NCBI GenBank assembly: GCA_029552745.1
Contig: JAKPDK010000167.1
Span: 199,973 to 263,972, forward strand
Origin: Candidatus Hydrogenedentota bacterium
GTDB taxonomy: Bacteria > Hydrogenedentota > Hydrogenedentia > Hydrogenedentales > SLHB01
Reading direction: 5' to 3'
DNA length: 64,000 nt
Shown: positions 1,358 to 61,500 of the stretch, one piece after another
How the letters are laid out: every line of letters starts with the position of its first letter
Position numbering within the stretch: the first letter of the stretch is position 1
Notes under the pieces: model-generated
The model's database searches: none
The model's input: the letters and a program-made list of their open reading frames with translations, nothing else
What the model was told of the DNA's origin: nothing
Made by a program: the position numbers and the translations under genes

Positions 1358-3715
1358 CTATTCCAAAACATTGTCCGGCGCTTCGGAATTGACGAGCACA
1401 GTAGGGGGCATCTCCCGCAGAAGGCGTTCGTGCGTCTCATACCAAGAAGCTTCTTCTTCCGGAGAAGGCACCTCAAAATCTAAGAAAATACAGTCGGCGT
1501 CCGCGGAGTACTTGTGAAATACGGTTGCAAAAGGTTCGTTAGGTGCCACAAGTACCTCGATTTCCGCAGGAATGCCGGCGTCCGCAATCGTTTTTTCCAA
1601 GTTCACGCGAGCGCTCTGTACGGCGCCGGGATTATCCACAGGCCGCAGAATACGAAGATTCATATGTGCCCATTCCCAGTTCTGTCGAAGTAAGTGGGCT
1701 AGGAGAAACATCAGCCGACCGTGCCGATCGTTGCGCCACCAGATATCAATTCGTTTACGATCATAGAAAAACGGGCGCTCATCGCCGTGCACCACAACCA
1801 CGCTCATGTCCATGGCTTTTGCAAGTCGATACTGTTCTGCAGCGACATGGATACGCCCGGAGTCCCCCGTCCAGCCGAAAACGGCCACATTGGGACGTAT
1901 CGGCCCTAGAGAGACGGTCTGAAGAATGCTGGAAACGCCCTGTAACAAGTCCTGCGCCACGACAACGATGGGAAATGCTTGGATGCGTTTCCATGCGCAG
2001 AACTCACGCAAGCGTTGCGCTACCGCGTCACGATGCGGCGCATATTGTTGAAGCGTTCCCACCAAAATGTTTGCCAGAAAGACCACGCCTCGTCCCGCGC
2101 TTAACCAGACCGCGTAACTGACAAGGGTTTCGCGGGTCTCGGGATTGCCAGAAAATACCAGACTGGTTGGCCGCCAGGATTGGGGTCTACCCTTGTAGGA
2201 AAGCTTCACCAAGTTGTTACGCGCTGCTTTATACAAAAAACCACGCTCGGCATCACCAAACGCTTCATCCAGCTCTCGTTTCTTGGTATACCACGTTAAT
2301 CCCGTGAGTAATATCACGACAACCACCGCCTCGACAGGGCGTAGCACAAGAACAATACCCAGACAGCCCACGGCGCCCACCAGCGCAGTCCACCAATGAA
2401 AAAGCGCAAATCGAGGCCGGAAGTTGGGTGTCTGCAAAAACGCCTCAAAAAACGCCGCCGTATTGACTATCCCTAACGTATACAAAACAAGCCGAGACAA
2501 CAACCGTGTCACCGTATCAAACTGAAGATGTGTCGGAGTCCGGTAAAGAAGCGCAACCACAAAAATCACACCCAATGACGCGATCCAAATCGTCTTTCGG
2601 GGCGCTCTCGCATCCGTTCGCGTCTTTCCGAATATTCGAACGATGGGCACCAGACCATCTCGTGCAACAGATTGCAGAACCGAGCCCGCACCCAGTAGAT
2701 TGCCTAATGCCCCTCCAAGAGCCGCCGCCGCCATCGCCACCAAGGCGAGAATCTTTCCACCGGGTACCGGTACAAGGAAGAACACACCAAACGGTTCATT
2801 CACCAAGTCCTGACGAGTATATGCACCCCCTAACAATAGAGCCCACGCTGCCGTTACCGCCAGCGATGCCGCAAAAAAGAGAAGTAGACCGACGGGAACA
2901 CTGCGCTCGGGTTTTTTGAGTGCATATCCCGAGTTAATTGGCACCAGAATGCCGGCAGCAACTGGCAAAAACAGAGCAAGCGCTCCCCAAAACGTGCCCG
3001 TGCCGCCGGAGGATATCGGCGTATATTGGGTGCCCCAGTTTTTCGCCAGACCCTCGGGTGTAAAATGCTGCACAGCCGCCACAAATGCCAAAACCAATAA
3101 TCCCACGACCAAGAGCAAGAATAAGACATTCGCGCGCGGAAGCCATGTAGACCGTATCGAAATCCCCAAAGACACGAGAACAAGCCCCAACAATACGATA
3201 TACAATCTGTAAACCGCCAGCACGGGATATGCGGCGACAAGAATATCGGCAAGACCAATCAGGCACATAGCCGCCGCGGTGGTATGCATGCAGAACAATG
3301 TCAAACCGGTGCTTGCCCCAAACTCCGGTCCAAGTACCCGTGACACCAAGTAGTACGCGCCGCCTCCTCGCACTTGGACATTTGTCGCAATGGCCGCAAA
3401 CGTCAAGAGGCTCAGCAGCATCAAAGAATGCATGAGGACAATTAACCCCAGCATGTTCAGAACACCCGCTTCCCCCAAGACCAGGTTGGCACGTAAAAAC
3501 AGGACGAGGGGAAGGGTTAACAGGAGGCTGGGAACAGCGACACCCAGGAAAATGCCCCACGAGACGCCCGGAAAACCACCTTCCGAAGAAACAGACGAAG
3601 TCGATGATGTTGAAGTCGTTCCGGACTGGGAGACAGCTCCCGCAGGTGACGAGGCTTCTCCGCCCGGCTGACCTGACTCTGCTTTGCCAGCATCCACTTT
3701 GATTTGCTCATCCAT
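1358..3715 (-). CDS. SLC12-type cation-chloride cotransporter (APC superfamily)
   Basis: The 785-aa protein has a Ser/Gly/Glu-rich, probably disordered N-terminus of about 45 residues, then about 12 hydrophobic segments to residue 480, then a soluble C-terminal domain of about 300 residues. The stretch GGAYYLVSRVLGPEFG in the membrane part is close to a hallmark of animal NKCC/KCC cotransporters. The C-terminal DIWWRNDRHGRLMFLLAHLL matches the SLC12 cytoplasmic domain. It should carry Cl- together with Na+ and/or K+ across the inner membrane, but the ion cannot be read from the sequence. It is upstream of the glycosidase-like gene. A promoter (TTGAAA-N18-CATAAT) lies directly upstream and borders repeat island A. 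Confidence 0.82.
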   Translation of the reverse strand: MDEQIKVDAGKAESGQPGGEASSPAGAVSQSGTTSTSSTSSVSSEGGFPGVSWGIFLGVAVPSLLLTLPLVLFLRANLVLGEAGVLNMLGLIVLMHSLMLLSLLTFAAIATNVQVRGGGAYYLVSRVLGPEFGASTGLTLFCMHTTAAAMCLIGLADILVAAYPVLAVYRLYIVLLGLVLVSLGISIRSTWLPRANVLFLLLVVGLLVLAFVAAVQHFTPEGLAKNWGTQYTPISSGGTGTFWGALALFLPVAAGILVPINSGYALKKPERSVPVGLLLFFAASLAVTAAWALLLGGAYTRQDLVNEPFGVFFLVPVPGGKILALVAMAAAALGGALGNLLGAGSVLQSVARDGLVPIVRIFGKTRTDARAPRKTIWIASLGVIFVVALLYRTPTHLQFDTVTRLLSRLVLYTLGIVNTAAFFEAFLQTPNFRPRFALFHWWTALVGAVGCLGIVLVLRPVEAVVVVILLTGLTWYTKKRELDEAFGDAERGFLYKAARNNLVKLSYKGRPQSWRPTSLVFSGNPETRETLVSYAVWLSAGRGVVFLANILVGTLQQYAPHRDAVAQRLREFCAWKRIQAFPIVVVAQDLLQGVSSILQTVSLGPIRPNVAVFGWTGDSGRIHVAAEQYRLAKAMDMSVVVVHGDERPFFYDRKRIDIWWRNDRHGRLMFLLAHLLRQNWEWAHMNLRILRPVDNPGAVQSARVNLEKTIADAGIPAEIEVLVAPNEPFATVFHKYSADADCIFLDFEVPSPEEEASWYETHERLLREMPPTVLVNSEAPDNVLE

Positions 3716-3737
3716 AGTGAAGCCCTCTGACTACTGC

Positions 3738-3767
3738 ATTATGAATGGATCCCAAGCCCTTTTTCAA
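3738..3767 (-). promoter_or_regulatory. Predicted sigma70-type promoter of the SLC12-like gene
   Basis: On the minus strand TTGAAA (3767-3762), an 18-nt spacer and CATAAT (3743-3738) match the -35 and -10 consensus at 5/6 each. The start codon is about 22 nt below the -10 box. The repeat terminus TGTATAAG begins at 3773, exactly 5 nt upstream of the -35 box. Confidence 0.55.
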
Positions 3768-3772
3768 TAGAC

Positions 3773-4445
3773 TGTATAAGACCAGTACCCTCGTCCCTGT
3801 CATTGTGAGGAGTGCCGCGGGGACGACGTGGCAATGACAACTAGAGGCAATAGACAAAAGGGGGATATTTTGAAAAATGTAGGGGCAACCCCCCGTGGTT
3901 GCCCAATGTTAGACCCCAGGCACGGCCGGGCAGCACAGATGCGAGACGGTGTGGAGCCTGTTCTAATCTCTCGTTCCCTCGCATACGACGGGATACGTAC
4001 CCCACCCCGCGAGTATCACGCAGCTGGATGTCGTTCCCCCTACGTGCGGGGGACACAGGGGGGCTTAACCCTGTGACGACAGCGTGGTAGGGGTGAGGCA
4101 CGCCTCGACCCTACAGGCAGAGCACGGGAAGGGCGAGCATGGGGGCTCGCCCCTACAGGGGATTGGAGGAAGGGTTTCAACCTATGCCGCTGGGTTTGGT
4201 ATCCCCCGCGGTGTCATTGCGACGAGCGAGTCCCCGACGCGACGAAGCAATCCCCTCAACCGCGTAGCGCAAGAGAACCCAAGGCATAGCCATCCCCGAA
4301 ATCCCGAGGGGATTGCCACGTCGTGCCTACCGGCACTCCTCGCAATGACAGCGTGTGTGACGGCGGCGTGGAGGGGGCGAGGCATGCCTCGCCCTTCCGT
4401 AGGCGACCGGGGGCAGGCGTATTTGTCCAACCTGTCTTGCCTCAT
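3773..4445. repeat. Repeat island A: mosaic of palindromic intergenic repeats
   Basis: This is the noncoding interval between the divergent SLC12-like and uvrC genes. It starts with TGTATAAGACCAGTACC and then has a 40-bp mini-element, GTCATTGTGAGG to GGCAATGAC (3799-3838). It next has a CCCCCTACGTGCGGGGG palindrome (about 4038-4054) and short palindromes of the TGAGGCACGCCTCGA and GGGCGAGC/GCTCGCCC types (about 4090-4160). A full unit of about 137 bp bounded by GTCATTGCGA and TCGCAATGAC lies at 4213-4349, followed by another GGCGAGGCATGCCTCGCC palindrome near 4376. Frames through it encode only repeat-derived peptides and were rejected. Confidence 0.85.
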
Positions 4446-4552
4446 AATCTAATAGACCCCTTGTAGCCTGTGGAAACTATCCCGGCAGTAACAAAGACCT
4501 CGCCCAGGCAGCCGCCACGACGAGGTTTGCCACGGCTGAAGGAGAAACCGCG

Positions 4553-6481
4553 GTGTGGTATCTTAAGAGTATGGTTACTTCGGAAGAACATTCTGATAAG
4601 GGATTCCCTGAACACGGGATCGCGCACGAGCTGCAGTCATTGGACTTGGCTACGGTACCAACCGAGCCCGGTTGCTATATTATGCGGGATGCCCAGGGTG
4701 TGCCGGTGTACGTAGGCAAAGCGGCAAATCTGCGCGCTCGTATCCGCACGTATTTGGCGAATCGCGACGAACGGGCTACCGTGGCGTTCCTGATGCAGCG
4801 TGCGGTCCACATCGAGTTTATTGTGACGCGGAACGAGAAGGAAGCGCTCCTACTGGAAGACAGTCTGATCAAACGCTACCGTCCGCGGTATAACATCCGG
4901 CTGCGTGACGATAAAACGTATGTCAGCGTTCGAGTGAATTTGTCTAATGAGTTTCCTCGTATCACGGTGACGCGAAAAATCGTGCGAGACGGTTCCAGAT
5001 ACTTTGGACCCTATGCGAGTGCGCTGGCAGTACGGGAAACCTTAAAACAGATGCAACGGGTGTTTCCGCTACGGACATGTTCTGACGCGGTATTACGTAA
5101 CCGAACGCGACCGTGTTTGTACTATGAAATCGGTCAATGTACGGCGCCGTGTGTGGGGAAAATCACGCCGGAAGCCTATCGCGAGATTGTGAACCAGGCG
5201 GTGATGGCGTTAGAAGGCAAACGTAACGACGTCGAAGCACTTTTGCTTGAGAAAATCCGTGCCCATGCCGAACGCCTGGAATTCGAGCAAGCCGCGGTCA
5301 TTCGGGATCGACTCCTCGCTCTGCGACAAACCTTCGAACAACAGTACGCCGTGCGCACCGACACCGCAGAGGATCGCGACGTGTTCGGCGTTCACCGTGA
5401 AGGCCGGTTCTGTGTAGTCCAGGTACTCTTTTTCAGGTCAGGGCGTATCATAGGAAGCCGTGCATTCCCGTTTTCGCGGTTGGACATGCCCCTCGATGAA
5501 ATGTTCAGTTCGTTCTTGCTTCAGTTCTACACGCAAGGGGTCCCCATCCCTGATGAAATCCTCCTTCCCATGACCCTGGAGGATACCGCAGTCCTTGAAG
5601 ATTTCCTTTCGGAACAACGGGGCAAACGGGTTGCCATCCGCCACCCGCAACGCGGAGAAAAACGGGCATTTTTGGATTTGGCAGAGCGAAATGCTAAGAG
5701 CAGCTTTGAAGAGATGAGACTTCGGGAACATGCCCAGCGAGATGTTTTGGAACAAGCCCGTCAATTACTGGAGTTGCCGCAGATACCGGAACGTATGGAG
5801 TGTTTTGACATATCCACGATACAAGGCGACAAACCCGTCGGCGCCATGTCGGTGTTTGTGGGGGGAGTGCCGGATAAGACGCGCTATCGGCATTACGCCA
5901 TCCGTGAAGTCAAAGGACAAGACGATTTTGCCATGTTACACGAGGTTGTACTGAGGCGTATGAAAAGGGCGATTGCCGAGGGCGACCTCCCTGATTTAGT
6001 CGTGATTGATGGGGGCAAGGGCCAATTGAACGCGGCTTTAGCCGCCTTGCGTGATTTGGGTATTGAAGATCTGCCCATCGTATCCATCGCGAAAGCACGT
6101 CCGGAAGAGAACCGCCCGGACGCCACTCAAGACCGCTTTTTCTTGCCCGGGAGAAAAAATCCCGTGGTGCCGCCACCCAACAGTCCTGTCTTACATTTGT
6201 TCATGCGTTTGCGCGACGAAGCCCATCGGTTTGCAATATCTTATCACCGTAAACGGCGTGGCAAAACCACCCTTAAGACGATTTTGGACGACATTCCCGG
6301 GCTAGGGAAAAAGCGTGTACAAGCGTTGCTGAATGCATTCGGCTCGGTGGAACGGATTCGCGCCGCGGATGTGTCCGAAGTGGCGGCATTACCCGGTTTT
6401 GGTGTAAGAACTGCCCAACAAATAAAGAATTTCCTTAACGAGCGAATCCAGGAGTCCACACAACCAGGAGATACGCGATGA
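4553..6481 (+). CDS. uvrC: UvrABC excinuclease subunit C
   Basis: UvrC makes both incisions beside DNA lesions after handover by UvrB in nucleotide excision repair. The 642-aa length is normal. In order: a GIY-YIG nuclease (about 35-110, GCYIMRDAQGVPVYVGKA), a Cys-containing linker, a UVR motif for UvrB contact (about 220-255, EFEQAAVIRDRLLAL), the RNase H-like second nuclease (ECFDIS, VIDGGKGQL), and C-terminal helix-hairpin-helix DNA-binding motifs (IPGLGKKRVQALL, LPGFGVRTAQQI). The GTG start at 4553 is preferred because AAGGAG lies 8 nt upstream; ATG 4571 is possible. Its stop overlaps the next start (ATGA). Confidence 0.97.
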   Translation: MWYLKSMVTSEEHSDKGFPEHGIAHELQSLDLATVPTEPGCYIMRDAQGVPVYVGKAANLRARIRTYLANRDERATVAFLMQRAVHIEFIVTRNEKEALLLEDSLIKRYRPRYNIRLRDDKTYVSVRVNLSNEFPRITVTRKIVRDGSRYFGPYASALAVRETLKQMQRVFPLRTCSDAVLRNRTRPCLYYEIGQCTAPCVGKITPEAYREIVNQAVMALEGKRNDVEALLLEKIRAHAERLEFEQAAVIRDRLLALRQTFEQQYAVRTDTAEDRDVFGVHREGRFCVVQVLFFRSGRIIGSRAFPFSRLDMPLDEMFSSFLLQFYTQGVPIPDEILLPMTLEDTAVLEDFLSEQRGKRVAIRHPQRGEKRAFLDLAERNAKSSFEEMRLREHAQRDVLEQARQLLELPQIPERMECFDISTIQGDKPVGAMSVFVGGVPDKTRYRHYAIREVKGQDDFAMLHEVVLRRMKRAIAEGDLPDLVVIDGGKGQLNAALAALRDLGIEDLPIVSIAKARPEENRPDATQDRFFLPGRKNPVVPPPNSPVLHLFMRLRDEAHRFAISYHRKRRGKTTLKTILDDIPGLGKKRVQALLNAFGSVERIRAADVSEVAALPGFGVRTAQQIKNFLNERIQESTQPGDTR

Positions 6482-8037
6482 AAAAGGTATGCTGCTTCTT
6501 GACGTTGATTACAAGTATAGCCGTTGCAGAATCCGACCTCATGGAACAAGCAACCAAGAATGCAGAGGTCAATCGAAAAGCCTTGTTAGCCTGTCGTCGG
6601 TACTTGGAAGCGTGGTTGCAATTTGCGGACCCTGCAACGCACCTTATTCCCCGAAATCTTTCTCGTGATTTCTATTGGAATGCAAAGGACGCTGCCGCCG
6701 ACAATTATCCTTTTATGGTCCTGTCAGCCTATTTCACCAGTAAACCGACGCTGGACGGAATCTTGACAGACATATTGAAGACAGAACAAAAGGTGTGCAA
6801 CCGGGTGGACCGATTGCCGGACGACTGGGATTTCCGTACACAAGCCTTCCGAACCCCGGAATACCGCATCGAAAATTTGATCTTTGGCGCAGCCGAGTAC
6901 GCAAAAGACGGCTTGGTGCCTATCACGGAAATGATAGGACCAAGCCCATGGTCGGATCGCATGCTCGCGCTTTTGGAAGATATCTGGAAACACGCAACCA
7001 TCCAGACAGAAGTCGGTTTGTTGCCCGACACCTCGCATGAGGTTGCTGGGGACCTGATGCAATCCTTGGCGCGTATGTACTGGATGACCAAGAATCCACG
7101 CTATAAAGAATGGGCATTTCAACTGGCGGCATATTTCCTGATGCACCATTTGCCAACGGACACAGACCGACTGCAAATTGACGACCACGGTTGTGAAGTA
7201 ATCGGCGGTCTGGCGGAAGTATATTGTATCGCAGCAAACGAAGACCCCGACCGACATGCAGCATGGCGGGCACCGATGCACAAAATGCTCGACCGAGTCC
7301 TAGAAATCGCACGTGACGAGCACGGATTGTTCCTAAGCCTTGTGAACCCGCGGACGGGAGAGTGGCTCACGGAGGACCGCACGGACAACTGGGGATATAC
7401 CTATAACGCTTATCTCTCTGTCGCCCAAGTAGATAAAGATAGAAAAGATTATGTCGACGCCGTTCTATTTGTCTTGAAAAACCTGCCACAAGTCGCCGAC
7501 TACCCCTGGGAAGGCGATAAATCGGATGGGATAGCCGATTCGTTGGAAGGCGGCTTGAACCTGATGAATCGGTTTCCAGTGCCTGAAGCCGTCTCCTGGG
7601 CTGACCACATGACGGGGCGCTTGCTTTCCAAACAACGGGATACTGGAATTATCGAGGGCTGGCACGGTGATGGAAACTTTGCCCGTACCGCGTTGATGGT
7701 TGCGTTTTGGAAGAGCCTGGGCGCCTATGTGGATCCATGGCGCGCCGACGTCGGCGTAGGGGCTGTCCCAACGGAAAAGGGTATCCAGGTTGTGGTGACA
7801 TCCCAATGGCCGTATCAAGGCAGGTTGTGCTTCGACAGACCCCGCCACAGCGAACTACTCCATATGCCACAGGACTATCCCCGTTTGAATCAGTTTCCGG
7901 AGTGGTTTACGGTATCGCCCGAAACTCAATTGATATCGGATACGGGGGACCTATATGATGGCAAAAGACTCAGAGAAGGTCTGGCGATTTCAACAGATCG
8001 AGACAAACCCTTTCAAATCCAACTGGGAAAACCTTGA
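6478..8037 (+). CDS. Secreted alpha/alpha-toroid glycosidase-like protein
   Basis: The 519-aa protein begins with a likely signal peptide (MKKVCCFLTLITSIAVAES). The body is a series of predicted helical hairpins with conserved aromatic and acidic residues (FYWNAKDAAADNYPFMVL, DDHGCEVIGGLAEVY, DNWGYTYNAYLSVAQ), typical of six-hairpin enzymes. I cannot assign a GH or PL family or a substrate. The start codon overlaps the uvrC stop as ATGA, so translation is probably coupled to a DNA-repair gene of unrelated function. The TIM-barrel isomerase gene follows 12 nt downstream, suggesting a small sugar-use operon with uvrC at its head. Confidence 0.55.
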   Translation: MKKVCCFLTLITSIAVAESDLMEQATKNAEVNRKALLACRRYLEAWLQFADPATHLIPRNLSRDFYWNAKDAAADNYPFMVLSAYFTSKPTLDGILTDILKTEQKVCNRVDRLPDDWDFRTQAFRTPEYRIENLIFGAAEYAKDGLVPITEMIGPSPWSDRMLALLEDIWKHATIQTEVGLLPDTSHEVAGDLMQSLARMYWMTKNPRYKEWAFQLAAYFLMHHLPTDTDRLQIDDHGCEVIGGLAEVYCIAANEDPDRHAAWRAPMHKMLDRVLEIARDEHGLFLSLVNPRTGEWLTEDRTDNWGYTYNAYLSVAQVDKDRKDYVDAVLFVLKNLPQVADYPWEGDKSDGIADSLEGGLNLMNRFPVPEAVSWADHMTGRLLSKQRDTGIIEGWHGDGNFARTALMVAFWKSLGAYVDPWRADVGVGAVPTEKGIQVVVTSQWPYQGRLCFDRPRHSELLHMPQDYPRLNQFPEWFTVSPETQLISDTGDLYDGKRLREGLAISTDRDKPFQIQLGKP

Positions 8038-54462: not shown

Positions 54463-55080
54463 TCAGCGGATAGTACGTTGCAATGCGATGACAACGCCTT
54501 GGATTTGGATCGTCTCAGCGGGGAAAAACAAAGATTTGAAACCCGGATTGGCGGGTCGAAGTTCAACGAGGTCTCCATGCCGATAGTAGCGTTTTACGGT
54601 CGCTTCGTCATCGACCAAGGCAACCACGATGTCCCCCTGATTGGGTGATACGTTAGGATCAACGATGATGATGTCTCCCGCAAGGATGCCGGCCTCTATC
54701 ATGCTGTCACCTTGCACCCGCAAGCCAAACACTCCCTCACGAGCGGCAGACGCTGCCACCGAGACATACGACTCAATGTTTTCTTCCGCCAGCACGGGCG
54801 AGCCCGCAGCAATCCGTCCAACCAAAGGGACAACGCCGACCTGGGTAGTATACAACCCCGCCGAGACCTTATCCGTCAGACGAATGGACCGCGCTTTCGA
54901 AGAGCGCTGGATAAATCCTTTCCGTTCCAAAGCGCGCAGGTGATCACTGACCGCATTGGTAGAGGCTATATGAAAACGGCGTCCGATTTCGGAAATTGTG
55001 GGCGGCATACCGTTTTTCTTGCTGAACATGATGATGAAATCTAGGATTTCACGTTGCCTTTTGGTCAATGTTTTGGCCAT
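54463..55080 (-). CDS. lexA: SOS repressor LexA
   Basis: LexA represses DNA-damage genes until RecA filaments trigger self-cleavage. The 205-aa protein has a winged helix (about 1-65; LTKRQREILDFI, then PPTISEIGRRF and the recognition helix TNAVSDHLRALE), a cleavage site Ala92-Gly93 (RIAAGSPVLAEE), catalytic Ser126 in QGDSM and Lys163 in EATVKRY. All key residues are present, so it should be autocleavable. It has a strong promoter with a candidate operator directly below the -10 box, implying autoregulation. Confidence 0.96.
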   Translation of the reverse strand: MAKTLTKRQREILDFIIMFSKKNGMPPTISEIGRRFHIASTNAVSDHLRALERKGFIQRSSKARSIRLTDKVSAGLYTTQVGVVPLVGRIAAGSPVLAEENIESYVSVAASAAREGVFGLRVQGDSMIEAGILAGDIIIVDPNVSPNQGDIVVALVDDEATVKRYYRHGDLVELRPANPGFKSLFFPAETIQIQGVVIALQRTIR

Positions 55081-55173: not shown

Positions 55174-55538
55174 TGTATAAGTCCAGTACCTTTGGCACTT
55201 TTGTAATGTTGGATGAGGAAGTGAAGAGAGGACTTTCCAGGAAAGTTGCTAAAAGAAAGGCACTGATGCGTAACGTCATAAGTAGGTTTGATCTATCTAT
55301 GCCCCCCTTAATCCCCCCGCATGCCGGGGGACACAAGGGGCTGAACCCTGCGCAGGGGATAGAAAGCCGTCCCCCGCTGTCATTGCGAGGAGCCCCGAAG
55401 GGGCGACGTGGCAATCCCCTTAGGTATCCGGAGATTACCCCGACCTATGCCCCATGTCATCTGGCGCTACGCGATTGAGGGGAAGGGCGAGGCATGCCTC
55501 ACCCCTACAAGGGAGATAGACTTTCTCCTCGCAATGAC
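55174..55538. repeat. Repeat island H: composite repeat related to island B, with a rearranged 140-bp unit
   Basis: It starts TGTATAAGTCCAGTACC and follows island B for about 260 bp (ATGTTGGATGAG, AGAGGACTTTCC, GTAGGTTTGATCTATC, CCCCCCGCATGCCGGGGG, then GTCATTGCGAGGAG from 55379). In the right half of the unit the usual ATTGCTTCGTCGCTTCGAAGA is replaced by GGGCGAGGCATGCCTCACCC and flanking bases, before the normal end CTCCTCGCAATGAC (to 55538). The remaining sequence to 55785 has no supportable gene. Confidence 0.88.
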
Positions 55539-55847: not shown

Positions 55848-57248
55848 TTAGTAAACGGCTTTGATGGTCACGACAAATGTCGCCGAGTAATTGCTGTTGC
55901 TAAGGGTGAACGTTGAGGTAGCCCCTGTAAGAGTAGCCGATGTCAACCCCATATCCCGTGTCGAACCAATCTCGTACATGTCATAGAACTTGTTGAAGAA
56001 ATCCAACTCATAGGCATTGAACTGGAAGTTCAGTTGCGACTCCCCGGGCGGAACGATCATGTCAAACACGGTCCAATTCGGGTACTGGGTCTGTCCTTTT
56101 TTCATCTTGAGCAAAATGGACACGCCATCGCTCATATTGATATCACACATCGGTGCGGTCACGCCCCAAAGCGTGGCTGCCCGCGGAGCATAGGTGCGCG
56201 CCGAAAACGCCCACTCGCTATTCCCCAAGAGATCGCCGTTCACCTTGGCATAGAACTGCGTGAGCGTAATCGTCACGCGGATATTGTTTTCCGCCGCTGA
56301 CACTACACCTGCCCACATCCCCATGTGATCAACGATTCCCGTATGCACCGTCGGATAATAGGCAAGCCCCGGCATCTGAAGCACACCATCCGTCGTCGGA
56401 TGAAGAGCTGCGGCGGTGGTGTAACCGCTAAACTTCTCATCGCTGACGTTACACGTACCGTCATTGGGCTGGTTACAAAGCGCCGTGATGTAGCCATCAC
56501 CGTCCGCCGTGGCAACAAACTGATTAATGATGATGGGACCATAGTACGGTGAGTTCATCGTCGCATGCGCCGAAATATTGGCATCCACCCAACTGTATTG
56601 CATATGGTCAATGTCAGGCGACGGGTTTTCACCAAAAATGGGTCCCAGAAGATCGTAATTGATCGAACTAGCAGCCCAGTTGCCTTGAACAACACCGACG
56701 ATCGGCATCCAGCGCGAAATAAGTTGGTCGCTGGCTAAATTGCAAAGATTGTGCTCGATAAGGTACCGCGTGATCTCACAGCCGAAACTGCCAGACAAGA
56801 TAATCGCCGAAGTTGCGCCAGAACGATCGATTACGTGTTTGATATACTTCGCCATGCGAAGCGCGTACCGCGGCACGCCCGCCGGCATCGCATTGTCAGC
56901 AGCCACGTCTTCCGGGGTATACCACGACGGCGGCACACTGCCGTAATACGTGGCTCCACAAACCTGGTTTGGCGCCGTCGGATTTTGGAAATTCGTAGGA
57001 CGCCCCGTAAACGCCGCAATTTGATTGACCGGTTCCGCAATATCGTCAATCATCGAATCATCGCCGTACACATTTGTGTATGTCCATCCATCGTTATCAA
57101 AACCATGAATGTAAACCATAATCGCCGTGCTTGGGTTATAATTTACCGCGTGAGCCGGCAATGCCACGGCGGCAAAAACCATCACCAAACCCGCACAGAC
57201 ACTCCACATCCCTTTGACTCCTACCCTACTAGAAATCACCTTCTTCAT
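55848..57248 (-). CDS. Secreted alpha/beta-hydrolase-like protein with C-terminal beta domain
   Basis: The 466-aa protein has a signal peptide (about 1-34, ending LPAHAV). The N-terminal half looks like an alpha/beta-hydrolase: an oxyanion-region IMVYIHGFDNDGW and a nucleophile elbow LSGSFGCE, in which Ser replaces the first Gly of GxSxG, as in some lipases. Candidate acid and His partners lie in the region 280-320 (HTGIVDHMGMW). The C-terminal 130 residues are Thr/Ser/Asn-rich beta strands. Lipase, esterase or acyltransferase activity is possible; the substrate is unknown. It stands alone, with its own terminator. Confidence 0.6.
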   Translation of the reverse strand: MKKVISSRVGVKGMWSVCAGLVMVFAAVALPAHAVNYNPSTAIMVYIHGFDNDGWTYTNVYGDDSMIDDIAEPVNQIAAFTGRPTNFQNPTAPNQVCGATYYGSVPPSWYTPEDVAADNAMPAGVPRYALRMAKYIKHVIDRSGATSAIILSGSFGCEITRYLIEHNLCNLASDQLISRWMPIVGVVQGNWAASSINYDLLGPIFGENPSPDIDHMQYSWVDANISAHATMNSPYYGPIIINQFVATADGDGYITALCNQPNDGTCNVSDEKFSGYTTAAALHPTTDGVLQMPGLAYYPTVHTGIVDHMGMWAGVVSAAENNIRVTITLTQFYAKVNGDLLGNSEWAFSARTYAPRAATLWGVTAPMCDINMSDGVSILLKMKKGQTQYPNWTVFDMIVPPGESQLNFQFNAYELDFFNKFYDMYEIGSTRDMGLTSATLTGATSTFTLSNSNYSATFVVTIKAVY

Positions 57249-57650: not shown

Positions 57651-58110
57651 ATGTGATTGCGAGGAGCCAGTCCCCGAGCGACGAAGCCAATCGTTCCCCG
57701 TTTGTAAGGGCGCAACGCGTTCCGCCGTATCCAGCCCCTACCAAAAGCAATCCCTTCCCCGACAGCCCTTGGTTGTCATTGCGAGGAGCCCCGAAGGGGC
57801 GACGTGGCAATCCCCTTGGGATTTCGGGGATGACCGTGCTCTGGGTTCTCTTGCGCTACGCGGTTAAGGGGATTGCTTCGTCGCTTCGAAGACTCGCTCC
57901 TCGCAATGACACCGCTGGGGACGTCAAACCCAACGGGATAGGTTGAAACCCCTCCCTGTTATTCCTTGTAGGGGCGAGCACGGAGGCTCGCCCTCCCCTG
58001 TCCCTTCTGCACACACCCCTTGCCCTGCCCGTAGGGGCGAGGCATGCCTCGCCCTACCACGCCACCGTCACACGGTTCAGCCCCCCTGTATCCCCCCCGC
58101 ATGCGGGGGA
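57651..58110. repeat. Repeat island I
   Basis: In order: a partial unit (ATTGCGAGGAGCC, 57656 onward); a complete 136-bp unit at 57775-57910; GGGCGAGCACGGAGGCTCGCCC (about 57974); GGGCGAGGCATGCCTCGCCC (about 58035); and a CCCCCCGCATGCGGGGG palindrome (about 58096). The whole divergent interval 57249-58396 has no gene; 57260-57500 is AT-rich and probably holds the promoter of the hydrolase-like gene. Confidence 0.87.
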
Positions 58111-58396: not shown

Positions 58397-58642
58397 GTGA
58401 ACAAGACGAAACTCCATGAGGGTATTGCTTTAATTGAGGTCTCGGACCCGCTTTTGTTGACGGAAATCGAAAACGATCCCGTCATTCGACCGTATCTCGG
58501 CGACCGTATCTCGGATTGCTGTGTACCCGTCATGCCGCACGCCGTGGCGGAAGTGCAACGCCGACTGCAAGCAATGGGGCATCTACCCACACGGCTCCAT
58601 TGTGCAACGGCGGAAGTTCCAAAGGGGGATCAGGCGGTATGA
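58397..58642 (+). CDS. Small 81-aa protein resembling the C-terminal domain of XPB-N-type proteins
   Basis: GTG start with AGGAG 7 nt upstream; 81 residues. The sequence (ALIEVSDPLLLTEIENDPV, then a strand and the helix AVAEVQRRLQAMGHLP) follows a beta-alpha-beta-beta-alpha pattern. The next protein has a similar element (TLVRFEDPETADAVMELAGS then LSELKRILKAHG). In several bacterial helicase-associated proteins such a module sits at the C-terminus, so this may be a separated copy. Its stop overlaps the next start (ATGA), so the two are probably translated together and may interact. Confidence 0.6.
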   Translation: MNKTKLHEGIALIEVSDPLLLTEIENDPVIRPYLGDRISDCCVPVMPHAVAEVQRRLQAMGHLPTRLHCATAEVPKGDQAV

Positions 58643-61200
58643 ACGTTCCCTATACGGTGCGAGAATGTCTGCAAGGGTACAACGCCGACACGCTGGGGGC
58701 GCTTTGCGCTTCTTGGGGATTGCCTGCCCGTTCCAAAGAACTTAACATACGCTCCCTGGAACAGATTTTGGAGAGCTCCACCCAGGTCGCGCGATTACTA
58801 GCTAACGCGCCCGGGGATACCCTGCGATTACTCCATCTCGTGTCCTGTCACCCACTCATCTCATTAGCCGACATACTCTCGGTAAGGGGGTTATATACGG
58901 GGAACTGTAGTGTTGAACCTTTGCGCATCGCTCTTCAGCACGGCTGGATTCTTGTGGCTCCTCGAGGCAGCAGTGGCGCATTTGCCCTGTCGGATTTGAC
59001 CCGAGAATACCGGCCAAACGACCCGAGTCCCTCTCTATTCGTGCCGACTTCGGTGCAAACGGTCCTCCCCCCGGCACCTGACGAGACACTGGAGGTTCCT
59101 CGTGTCCCAGAGGGTACGGTCATACCGGACCCATCTCCTACCGATTGGACGACTAACGCATCTTTGGAATTCTTGCGTCTCGTGGATATCGTTCAACCGC
59201 GGGTAACCGCCGGTAAAACCTTACATCGCGCCGACTGGCAACAGGTGCTCGAAGAAGCTCGGAATGTCGGTATCCCCTCTGAAAGCCTCACCCTGTTGTA
59301 CGGCATCTTGCAAACCCTGCAATGCGTAGCCGAACAGAATGGGCGTCTCGTCGTGACCCCCAGAGCCGAACAATGGGTTAGGCTATCCCAATCCCAACGG
59401 GCATGCGACCTTTTTCAAGTCTTTTTAGAATCGGAAGACCTTTACGAGATAACAATTTTCTTCCCCGAATCTTTTTCCTCCATAGACGCCTATGCCCCTG
59501 CCGGCACGTTGCGTAGAACCTACTTCAAAAAACTGGCAGCATATCTCTTAAGCACATTGGACACCTCCACATGGTACGAGGTCCAAACGTTTGTGGACCT
59601 AATCAAGACTCGAGATAGAAATGTCCTTTTCTTGGAAGAACCATGGCGTGCTATTCAGGCACATGCCCGAGGGGATATCGCCGTATGGCGCGAGAATGCG
59701 TGGCGCACCCACGAAGAACGGCTATATCAATGGATGTTACGCGCCGTTTTCGCCGGAATGGGAATCATCCAACTTGGCAATCAAGGGAGCGTATTTCGGC
59801 TAACACCTCAAGGGGTGTTCACGTGTAAAGGGGCGCCGATTCCCGAAACCCAGAGTGACGAACTACCCCAGACGCAAGGTGCCGGTGACGCCATTGTCGT
59901 TCAGCCGGACTTCGAAGTCATCGCCTTTCTTGACCGCTGCACCCCTGAACTGCGCCGGCGACTTGATGCCTTCTGTGACCGCATTCGACCCGGGCAGGCA
60001 ACAACGTACCGCATCACCGAAGAAAGCATTCGACGTGGCATCAATTCCGGTTTTCCACTCGAAGGGTTTCTCCGCGTGCTCGAAGAAGCCTCCGCCCGAC
60101 CTCTGCCGGCAAACGTGCGTGACCAGTTCTCTACTTGGATCCGCAAAAGGAACGCCATCGTCATACGTACAAACTGTAAATTGGTGGAATGTCTCTCCGA
60201 AAAAGACGCCCGCACGTTGGCAAAAAACAATGACCAGCTGAGGCTAATAGGAACCCGTTTTCTGCTCTGTGAAGACACACAGTTGCCGCACGTCGACACC
60301 GTGGTCTCGTATTCTCAAGAAAACTCCCCTTTTCTTGAGCCCGCGGAAGGCCTTCAATTGAAATGCCCGTGGGAAAAATGGAATCTTTTTCACACTCGCC
60401 GACTAGAGTCTCTAGGCACGTTATCCCGAGCATCAAATGGCGACCTTCTCTTCACTCCGACTATCGACAAAAAACTTCTCCAGGATGACTGGCAAACCTT
60501 GCTTGACGAATTACAGAGCCTCACTGTTGTACCCCTACCCCCTCGTTATCGAACCTCCCTCCGTGCTTACGCCGAAGGCAATGTCGTCGGTAAAGCACGT
60601 ACCGTCACCCTCGTACGTTTTGAGGACCCAGAAACCGCCGACGCCGTCATGGAGCTCGCAGGTAGTTCCGGTGCAATTGAAGGACGCCTAGGAAACTACA
60701 CCCTGGTTGTCCGAAAAGCCAGACTTTCGGAACTCAAACGCATCCTGAAAGCCCACGGTATCCGAGTCATCACCTCAGCGGAATGTTGGGACGACACCCC
60801 CGTTATCAATGGCGAGTCCGCAGAACAGATTTCACAACCCGCCGAGTTGACCACAATTCCTGCTAGCGCTTCTAAGAAAAAGACGCGCGCACGCTCCAAA
60901 CGCAAGAAAAACGTTTCCACCTCCGAAAGCGCCCCCGCACCGCAAGAATTGCCCAGCTACTCTACAAAAATCATGCAAGAAATCCTCGAAGACGCCATCC
61001 AGCGCCGACGGTTGGTCCTCATCGCCTACGAATCCAGCCTGAGCGCCCGCGCGGACACGCGGGTCATAAAACCCGTTATGCTGGACCTCCATAACACGCC
61101 CCCCGTCCTCAACGCCTTCTGTTGCAAACAGAACGTCGCGCGTCAATTCAAATTGTCCCAAATCCGAGGCATCCGCGTCCTCGAAAACGAGACGTTTTGA
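58639..61200 (+). CDS. Helicase XPB/Ssl2 N-terminal-domain-like protein with C-terminal WYL domain
   Basis: The 853-aa protein starts at ATG 58639, overlapping the preceding stop. An N-terminal region (about 1-85) has helices like YNADTLGALCASWGLP. The middle has the PF13625-type mark AIVVQPDFEVIAFLDRCTPE followed by YRITEESIRRGINSG. A beta-alpha module (about 660-715), a Lys/Arg-rich linker (KKKTRARSKRKK) and a C-terminal WYL domain (about 775-853: LVLIAYESSLSARADTRVIK, then RQFKLSQIRGIRVLE) follow. No helicase motor is present. WYL domains often sense nucleic acids or nucleotides. A DNA-repair or defence regulator is inferred; XPB itself is not in the window. Confidence 0.75.
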   Translation: MNVPYTVRECLQGYNADTLGALCASWGLPARSKELNIRSLEQILESSTQVARLLANAPGDTLRLLHLVSCHPLISLADILSVRGLYTGNCSVEPLRIALQHGWILVAPRGSSGAFALSDLTREYRPNDPSPSLFVPTSVQTVLPPAPDETLEVPRVPEGTVIPDPSPTDWTTNASLEFLRLVDIVQPRVTAGKTLHRADWQQVLEEARNVGIPSESLTLLYGILQTLQCVAEQNGRLVVTPRAEQWVRLSQSQRACDLFQVFLESEDLYEITIFFPESFSSIDAYAPAGTLRRTYFKKLAAYLLSTLDTSTWYEVQTFVDLIKTRDRNVLFLEEPWRAIQAHARGDIAVWRENAWRTHEERLYQWMLRAVFAGMGIIQLGNQGSVFRLTPQGVFTCKGAPIPETQSDELPQTQGAGDAIVVQPDFEVIAFLDRCTPELRRRLDAFCDRIRPGQATTYRITEESIRRGINSGFPLEGFLRVLEEASARPLPANVRDQFSTWIRKRNAIVIRTNCKLVECLSEKDARTLAKNNDQLRLIGTRFLLCEDTQLPHVDTVVSYSQENSPFLEPAEGLQLKCPWEKWNLFHTRRLESLGTLSRASNGDLLFTPTIDKKLLQDDWQTLLDELQSLTVVPLPPRYRTSLRAYAEGNVVGKARTVTLVRFEDPETADAVMELAGSSGAIEGRLGNYTLVVRKARLSELKRILKAHGIRVITSAECWDDTPVINGESAEQISQPAELTTIPASASKKKTRARSKRKKNVSTSESAPAPQELPSYSTKIMQEILEDAIQRRRLVLIAYESSLSARADTRVIKPVMLDLHNTPPVLNAFCCKQNVARQFKLSQIRGIRVLENETF

Positions 61201-61231: not shown

Positions 61232-61500
61232 GTCATTGCGAGGAGTGCCGCTAGGCACGACATGGCAATCCCCGCGGGAATTCGGAGAAGACTTTCACTT
61301 TGCCCTGCGCCCTCTTGCGCTGCGCGGTTGAGGGGATTGCTTCGTTGCTTCGAAGACTCGCTCCTCGCAATGACAACGAGGGGGACGAAGAGGGCGAGCA
61401 CAGGGGCTCGCCCCTACAGGGGAAAGACCGAGGCGATGTACGCAAGGGGGGCAGTTTTAGGCAAAGATAAAGCAGGGCGAGTCATGACTCGCCCCTACAG
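61232..61500. repeat. Repeat island J
   Basis: A complete 142-bp unit at 61232-61373 (GTCATTGCGAGGAG to CTCCTCGCAATGAC) is followed by GGGCGAGCACAGGGGCTCGCCC (about 61391) and GGGCGAGTCATGACTCGCCC (about 61475). It lies between two plus-strand genes. In 61501-61722 a perfect hairpin GCACTTG-CAATAA-CAAGTGC (61577-61596) is the only other structure; no gene is supported. Confidence 0.87.

Follow-up and report, generated by a model that had tools for sequence, protein, structure and literature searches.

What might two overlapping genes do when the larger encodes an XPB-N and WYL protein and the smaller a protein of only 81 residues? The question is raised by a locus of an uncultured Hydrogenedentota bacterium, within the 64,000-nucleotide stretch of DNA analyzed here (the window). 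The small gene (58397..58642, + strand; GTG start, TGA stop) encodes an 81-aa p8/XPB-DRD-like module and the large gene (58639..61200, + strand; ATG start, TGA stop) an 853-aa p52/Tfb2-like protein with a C-terminal WYL domain; both frames and their ATGA overlap are present where a preliminary description had placed them. This stop/start overlap (58639..58642, + strand; read from the sequence) probably couples translation of the two genes, and AGGAG lies about 8 bases 5' of the GTG start of the small gene. In most orthologs a -10-like element of the TATACT/TAGACT type occurs about 25-50 bases before the small-gene start codon, suggesting that the two genes are transcribed as a unit of their own; the closest such element in the window copy lies about 160 bases before the small gene.

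Both genes are carried by 17 of the 25 genomes of one Hydrogenedentota family, and in a search of 100 relatives the large-protein orthologs, whole or partial, were confined to that family. Every one of the 16 relatives of the small frame directly precedes a large-frame relative or, in one genome, shares a contig with its start (there the large gene is split across two contigs, and the small frame sits beside the start); the pairing is therefore not a matter of chance. The exact 4-base overlap (ATGA, GTGA, or TTGA) is found in 12 of 15 intact pairs, the genes of the remaining three being 4, 28, and 253 bases apart. Identity to the window copy is 44-62% for the small protein (full alignment of relatives, 68-81 aa in length) and 35-40% for the large protein (36-41% for the orthologs from the search of 100 relatives); across pair-bearing relatives the small protein is the better conserved. 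The small gene is under purifying selection, with dN/dS of about 0.08-0.2 for close pairs and differences of 0.32/0.17/0.60 by codon position. The preliminary description had proposed a two-subunit system and had named beforehand a small frame lacking conservation as the outcome that would speak against it; the relatives carry a conserved frame, always coupled to the large one. Outside the family, a search of 386 genomes at E <= 0.01 returned as small-protein relatives only the XPB DRD of one genome (G045) and three marginal matches (E about 0.005-0.008).

The surroundings of the pair are less constant. No neighboring gene is conserved beyond close relatives; the helicase, nuclease, or defense genes that the preliminary description had proposed to look for in related genomes form no conserved neighborhood. 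Assignment to a defense system was rejected, as PADLOC reported WYL-type models only, over the WYL domain. In the window, a LexA-like repressor gene (54463-55080, - strand) lies 3.3 kb upstream of the pair, with no shared operator found. A LexA-type box, GAAC-N7-GAAC, located 122 bases before the small gene was discarded as a candidate operator; the window holds two such boxes against 3.1 expected, and neither the upstream sequence of any of the 15 orthologs nor that of lexA contains the box. Other features of the window are an intergenic element, TCATTGCGAGGAG...GGCAATCCCC, repeated in several copies around the pair (about 55378-55418, 57755-57815, and 61232-61275), which looks like a dispersed palindromic repeat, and a gene (55848-57248, - strand) for a 466-aa secreted-looking protein with a hydrophobic N-terminus and an HGFDNDGW motif, possibly an alpha/beta hydrolase.

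The large protein resembles the p52 subunit of TFIIH in its predicted fold, where the p52-type order of winged helices, clutch, and p8-like module can be recognized. When its AlphaFold2 (AF2) model (15 sequences, pLDDT 80) was compared with 350,542 PDB chains by Foldseek, the best 20 matches were without exception TFIIH p52/Tfb2 chains, which came from several different structures and species (E 2.5e-9 to 4e-4, 369-580 columns); these were followed by the WYL proteins BrxR, CapW, PafBC, and DriD. TM-scores to p52 are low (0.28-0.39 by target), indicating that the domains match in order and not as one rigid arrangement. Residues 1-400 (58639..59838, + strand) form a winged-helix-type/helical N-terminal region in the AF2 secondary structure, mostly at pLDDT 85-93, and match the p52 winged helices by position in a Foldseek alignment of 565 columns. 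The following clutch 1 (residues 417-503; 59887..60147, + strand) is of the Helicase_C_3/XPB NTD/p52 HubA type according to Pfam, hhalign, and profile comparison with the PDB. A charged linker of low confidence (residues 715-767; 60781..60939, + strand), which has pLDDT below 50 and the lowest conservation of the protein, precedes the WYL domain (residues 776-849; 60964..61185, + strand).

Sequence comparisons agree with this anatomy. Pfam places Helicase_C_3 (XPB-N) at residues 420-527 (E 3e-13) and WYL at residues 782-847 (E 1.6e-7; 31.7 bits, cut-off 21.8), and domain searches of both proteins of the pair found no RecA-like helicase motor, as the preliminary description had read the large protein. 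The WYL domain is present in every large-protein ortholog and its profile matches PafBC, BrxR, and CapW chains in the PDB. By hhalign, clutch 1 scores 99.3% against the clutch of a 617-aa paralog and 96.6% against the XPB NTD of its own phylum; a profile of the clutch plus the following module, made from the large protein and the paralog, matches 11 PDB sequences (E 2.7e-4 to 1.5e-3), all of them p52 or XPB, and the end of the human p52 clutch, LPPTITDQIRLW, aligns opposite LPANVRDQFSTW of the window protein. Five of 15 orthologs match Pfam Tfb2 (PF03849), the best at E 2.9e-4, below the curated cut-off (the ortholog of locus L036 reaches 19.1 bits; cut-off 34.5); by curated cut-offs the pair are not members of Tfb2 or Tfb5.

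The region between clutch 1 and the linker appears to complete two tandem clutch-module units, since residues 562-716 align with the clutch and C-terminal module of the paralog (136 columns, 57%) and the predicted elements of this second unit in the AF2 model repeat those of residues 417-557. The second clutch-like unit (residues 566-645; 60334..60573, + strand), assigned from the alignment with the paralog and AF2 element order, is divergent and is the weakest part of the anatomy. The module of the first unit, D1 (residues 506-557; 60154..60309, + strand), is p8/DRD-like by hhalign, module alignment, and AF2; it retains the first strand, the helix, and the following strands but is missing the last helix (helix 2), and it scores 44% against the cis modules of other phyla, over its first part only, and just 7% against the small protein. 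The second module, D2 (residues 655-710; 60601..60768, + strand), is complete by hhalign, scoring 97.1% against the cis modules of other phyla and 64% against XPB DRD. Its score against the small protein is 51%, where controls reach at most 7%, which upholds the likeness first noticed between the small protein and a module near the end of the large one. The other outcome named beforehand as speaking against the idea, unrelated predicted structures of the two modules, did not arise either.

The small protein itself appears from its sequence to be a free-standing copy of the p8/XPB-DRD type of module found in the large protein. It has a conserved core (residues 5-66), a lineage-specific tail (residues 67-81), and a predicted beta-alpha-beta-alpha-beta fold (AF2 model, pLDDT 72). 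When its profile was run against 6,592 frames, nearly all matches beyond its own family were XPB DRDs or p52-like C-terminal modules; hhalign gives 97.6% to the cis modules of other phyla, 94% to XPB DRD, and 89% to the module of the 617-aa paralog, with control segments at most 7%. The resemblance to modules of XPB-associated proteins noted at the outset is thus borne out. Foldseek comparison of the small model with the PDB gave no match below E 1e-3; the 50 best matches repeatedly include TFB5, p8, and XPB chains, and one of these, 3dom_B, has a probability of 0.99 and a TM-score of 0.65 by target, but an E of 0.1, at which unrelated folds also appear. A Pfam search of the small protein found no match, and PDB sequence searches with it, alone or as a profile, gave chance matches only. 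Membership of Pfam Tfb5 (PF06331) was rejected: one of 16 members matches, partially, at E 0.094 and 13.2 bits against a cut-off of 23.5, and an unrelated MshEN match is stronger. The protein belongs to the p8/DRD type of module, a type within which its sequence does not separate p8 from DRD and places it at least as close to XPB DRD as to p8.

The known partner of such parts, an XPB helicase, was said to be missing from the window, and no XPB gene is found within it; the genome does encode one, unlinked to the pair, on another contig (C102). This XPB is 575 aa long and has a clutch-type NTD and a DRD, to which clutch 1 and the small protein, respectively, are homologous. Across the order, 51 of 68 genomes have an XPB that scores over the cut-off. 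Of the 17 genomes with the pair, 15 encode a whole XPB and one a partial XPB, and none was found in the remaining genome, which is 80% complete. None of the Hydrogenedentota loci read shows linkage of the pair to XPB, and the pair is restricted to one family, whereas XPB occurs order-wide without it. The 617-aa p52-like paralog (L002 97-1950, + strand; genome G000, contig C106) is likewise found across nearly the whole order; it has a clutch and a p8-like module in cis and no WYL domain, and matches Pfam Tfb2 at E 2.7e-4.

In other phyla, an XPB gene is adjacent to or overlaps a p52-like gene in at least 12 of 20 loci read, a fraction that is biased because nine of the 20 were picked for two matches close together; among the other 11, three are XPB-adjacent. 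The bacterial XPB/p52-like operon looks general. Loci in which p52-like (Helicase_C_3) genes adjoin or overlap XPB helicase genes are L153-L161, L168, L171, and L172; at L172 an 818-aa XPB (4263-6716, + strand), whose clutch is preceded by about 270 additional N-terminal residues, is encoded directly downstream of a 919-aa p52-like gene (1503-4259, + strand). Some of these relatives may also carry a WYL domain: the 693-aa p52-like protein of L164 has one by profile, below the Pfam cut-off, and the C-terminal stretch of those of L112 and L114 is WYL-like by eye.

No small partner gene was seen in the 20 p52-like loci of other phyla, and most matches to the p52-like profile of those phyla run through clutch and module, whereas the matches of the 853-aa orthologs end at or soon after the clutch. 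The family with the small subunit is therefore the family with a decayed clutch-adjacent module, a pattern which suggests that an intact module in trans compensates for, or complements, the degenerate copy in cis. The preliminary idea that a regulator or sensor had taken on separate subunits accordingly stands as far as the two genes go, with the amendment that a module located in cis in other phyla comes here from a separate gene, in trans.

In humans and yeast, p52 and p8 are the TFIIH subunits that hold and govern XPB, the DNA-opening motor, and mutations in p8 and XPB cause trichothiodystrophy in people. The clutch of p52 dimerizes pseudo-symmetrically with the XPB NTD (PMC6422496); p8 has the same fold as the C-terminal domain of p52 and pairs with it (PMC7708078), and p52/p8 set the speed of XPB, both stimulating and limiting its ATPase (PMC7708078; PMC9557730). 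The homology of the bacterial clutches and modules to p52, p8, and XPB parts is well supported; what makes the pair p52/p8-like is the order of its domains, the homology of its clutch, and, in the large protein only, the fold. Like p52 (TFB2, GTF2H4), its top structural match, the large protein has a winged-helix region, a clutch homologous to the XPB NTD, and a p8-like module; unlike p52, it is bacterial, has two clutch-module units and a WYL domain, and its gene is unlinked to those of other TFIIH-type subunits. The small protein resembles p8 (TFB5, TTDA, GTF2H5) in its size (p8 has about 70 aa), in its similar order of secondary structure, and in being the small partner of a protein with a like-folded module, but its sequence similarity to p8 is not significant alone. 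From XPB itself (NTD and DRD; Helicase_C_3, NF045503) the pair differs in having no RecA motor. Bacterial motorless Helicase_C_3 proteins, including the 617-aa paralog, share the clutch and p8-like module, some with a WYL or WYL-like end; their module, however, is in cis and intact.

As the same set of parts as in TFIIH is present, the likeliest reading, in which we place somewhat better than even confidence, is that the pair is a bacterial p52-p8 (TFB2-TFB5)-like hub: it would dock on XPB and tune it, and its WYL domain would sense nucleic acid. The large protein would be a p52-like scaffold of winged helices, clutch 1 with D1, divergent clutch with D2, linker, and WYL domain; the small protein would be a p8-like subunit, its synthesis matched to that of the scaffold by the ATGA overlap, and may pair with D2 (or complete D1) in the way that p8 associates with the C-terminal domain of p52, whose fold it shares. 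Clutch 1 would dock on the clutch-type NTD of the genome's unlinked XPB translocase and tune its ATPase. The WYL domain may sense ssDNA or another nucleic acid, as the WYL domains of PafBC (PMC11804915) and DriD (PMC12340889) bind ssDNA, and such sensing might be coupled to DNA damage or transcription. In sum, we infer a heterodimer that binds XPB, senses ssDNA, and has a role in repair or transcription. Several observations weaken the hub reading: neither protein reaches its Pfam cut-off for Tfb2 or Tfb5, Foldseek matches of the small model (E 0.07-0.4) include unrelated alpha/beta folds, the small protein is at least as near to DRD as to p8, the large model has low TM-scores against p52, the pair is apart from an XPB that exists order-wide without it, the order-wide 617-aa paralog is a simpler candidate for p52, and two clutches in one chain could pair mutually, leaving no site for XPB.

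This last arrangement underlies the main rival, which we regard as unlikely: a WYL transcription regulator no longer tied to XPB, in which the clutches would pair within the chain, the small protein would complete the fold, the winged helices would bind DNA, and the WYL domain would bind a nucleic-acid signal. The constant WYL domain, the tandem clutch-DRD units, the absence of linkage to XPB, and the restriction of the pair to one family beside an order-wide XPB and paralog all fit such a regulator, and most WYL proteins are transcription factors. The large protein shares a WYL domain with the regulators PafBC, DriD, BrxR, and CapW; in those families it is joined to winged-helix DNA-binding domains, not to clutch units. 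What speaks against such a regulator is that clutch 1 has kept its character and is similar to the type that binds XPB, that p52-like proteins of other phyla, some with a WYL or WYL-like end, are encoded next to XPB, and that no neighboring target gene is conserved. The preliminary term of XPB-N/WYL protein holds, and a p52/p8-like hub describes it better than a generic regulator does.

It is more doubtful still that the small protein is a free-standing, XPB-DRD-like damage-recognition module that hands distorted DNA to the large protein or XPB, and not a p8-like structural subunit. Its closest relatives include the XPB DRD (hhalign 94%, and the profile match to the G045 XPB), but the p52-like cis modules score higher (97.6%), the one-to-one pairing of its gene with the large gene fits a structural role, and the invariant residues are mixed, with no obvious basic patch. 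That the 81-aa frame is no gene, or a leader peptide only, as its shortness, GTG start, and want of a Pfam match might suggest, is contradicted by its presence in 17 genomes, conservation above that of the large protein, dN/dS of about 0.1, and homology to known modules, and can be dismissed.

The bacterial function of XPB was still called elusive in a 2026 review (PMC13024598), and p52 relatives have earlier been stated to be absent from bacteria. The literature searched, which covered few subscription papers, describes no bacterial p52 or p8 and no system like this one, in keeping with the preliminary view that it may be undescribed. Whether bacteria in general have a TFIIH-like XPB hub, with p52-like proteins accompanying XPB in many phyla and a p8-like module split off, as it is in eukaryotes, in one Hydrogenedentota family by parallel evolution or as a relic of an arrangement in a common ancestor, seems to us evenly balanced. 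The p52-like family, with its linkage to XPB in several phyla, and the p8-like subunit would together supply the missing bacterial partners of XPB. The pair would be a minimal model of the XPB-p52-p8 hub, and one that can be expressed, and it bears on the origin of TFIIH; for the Hydrogenedentota family that carries it, it may offer a route by which a WYL sensor controls a DNA translocase.
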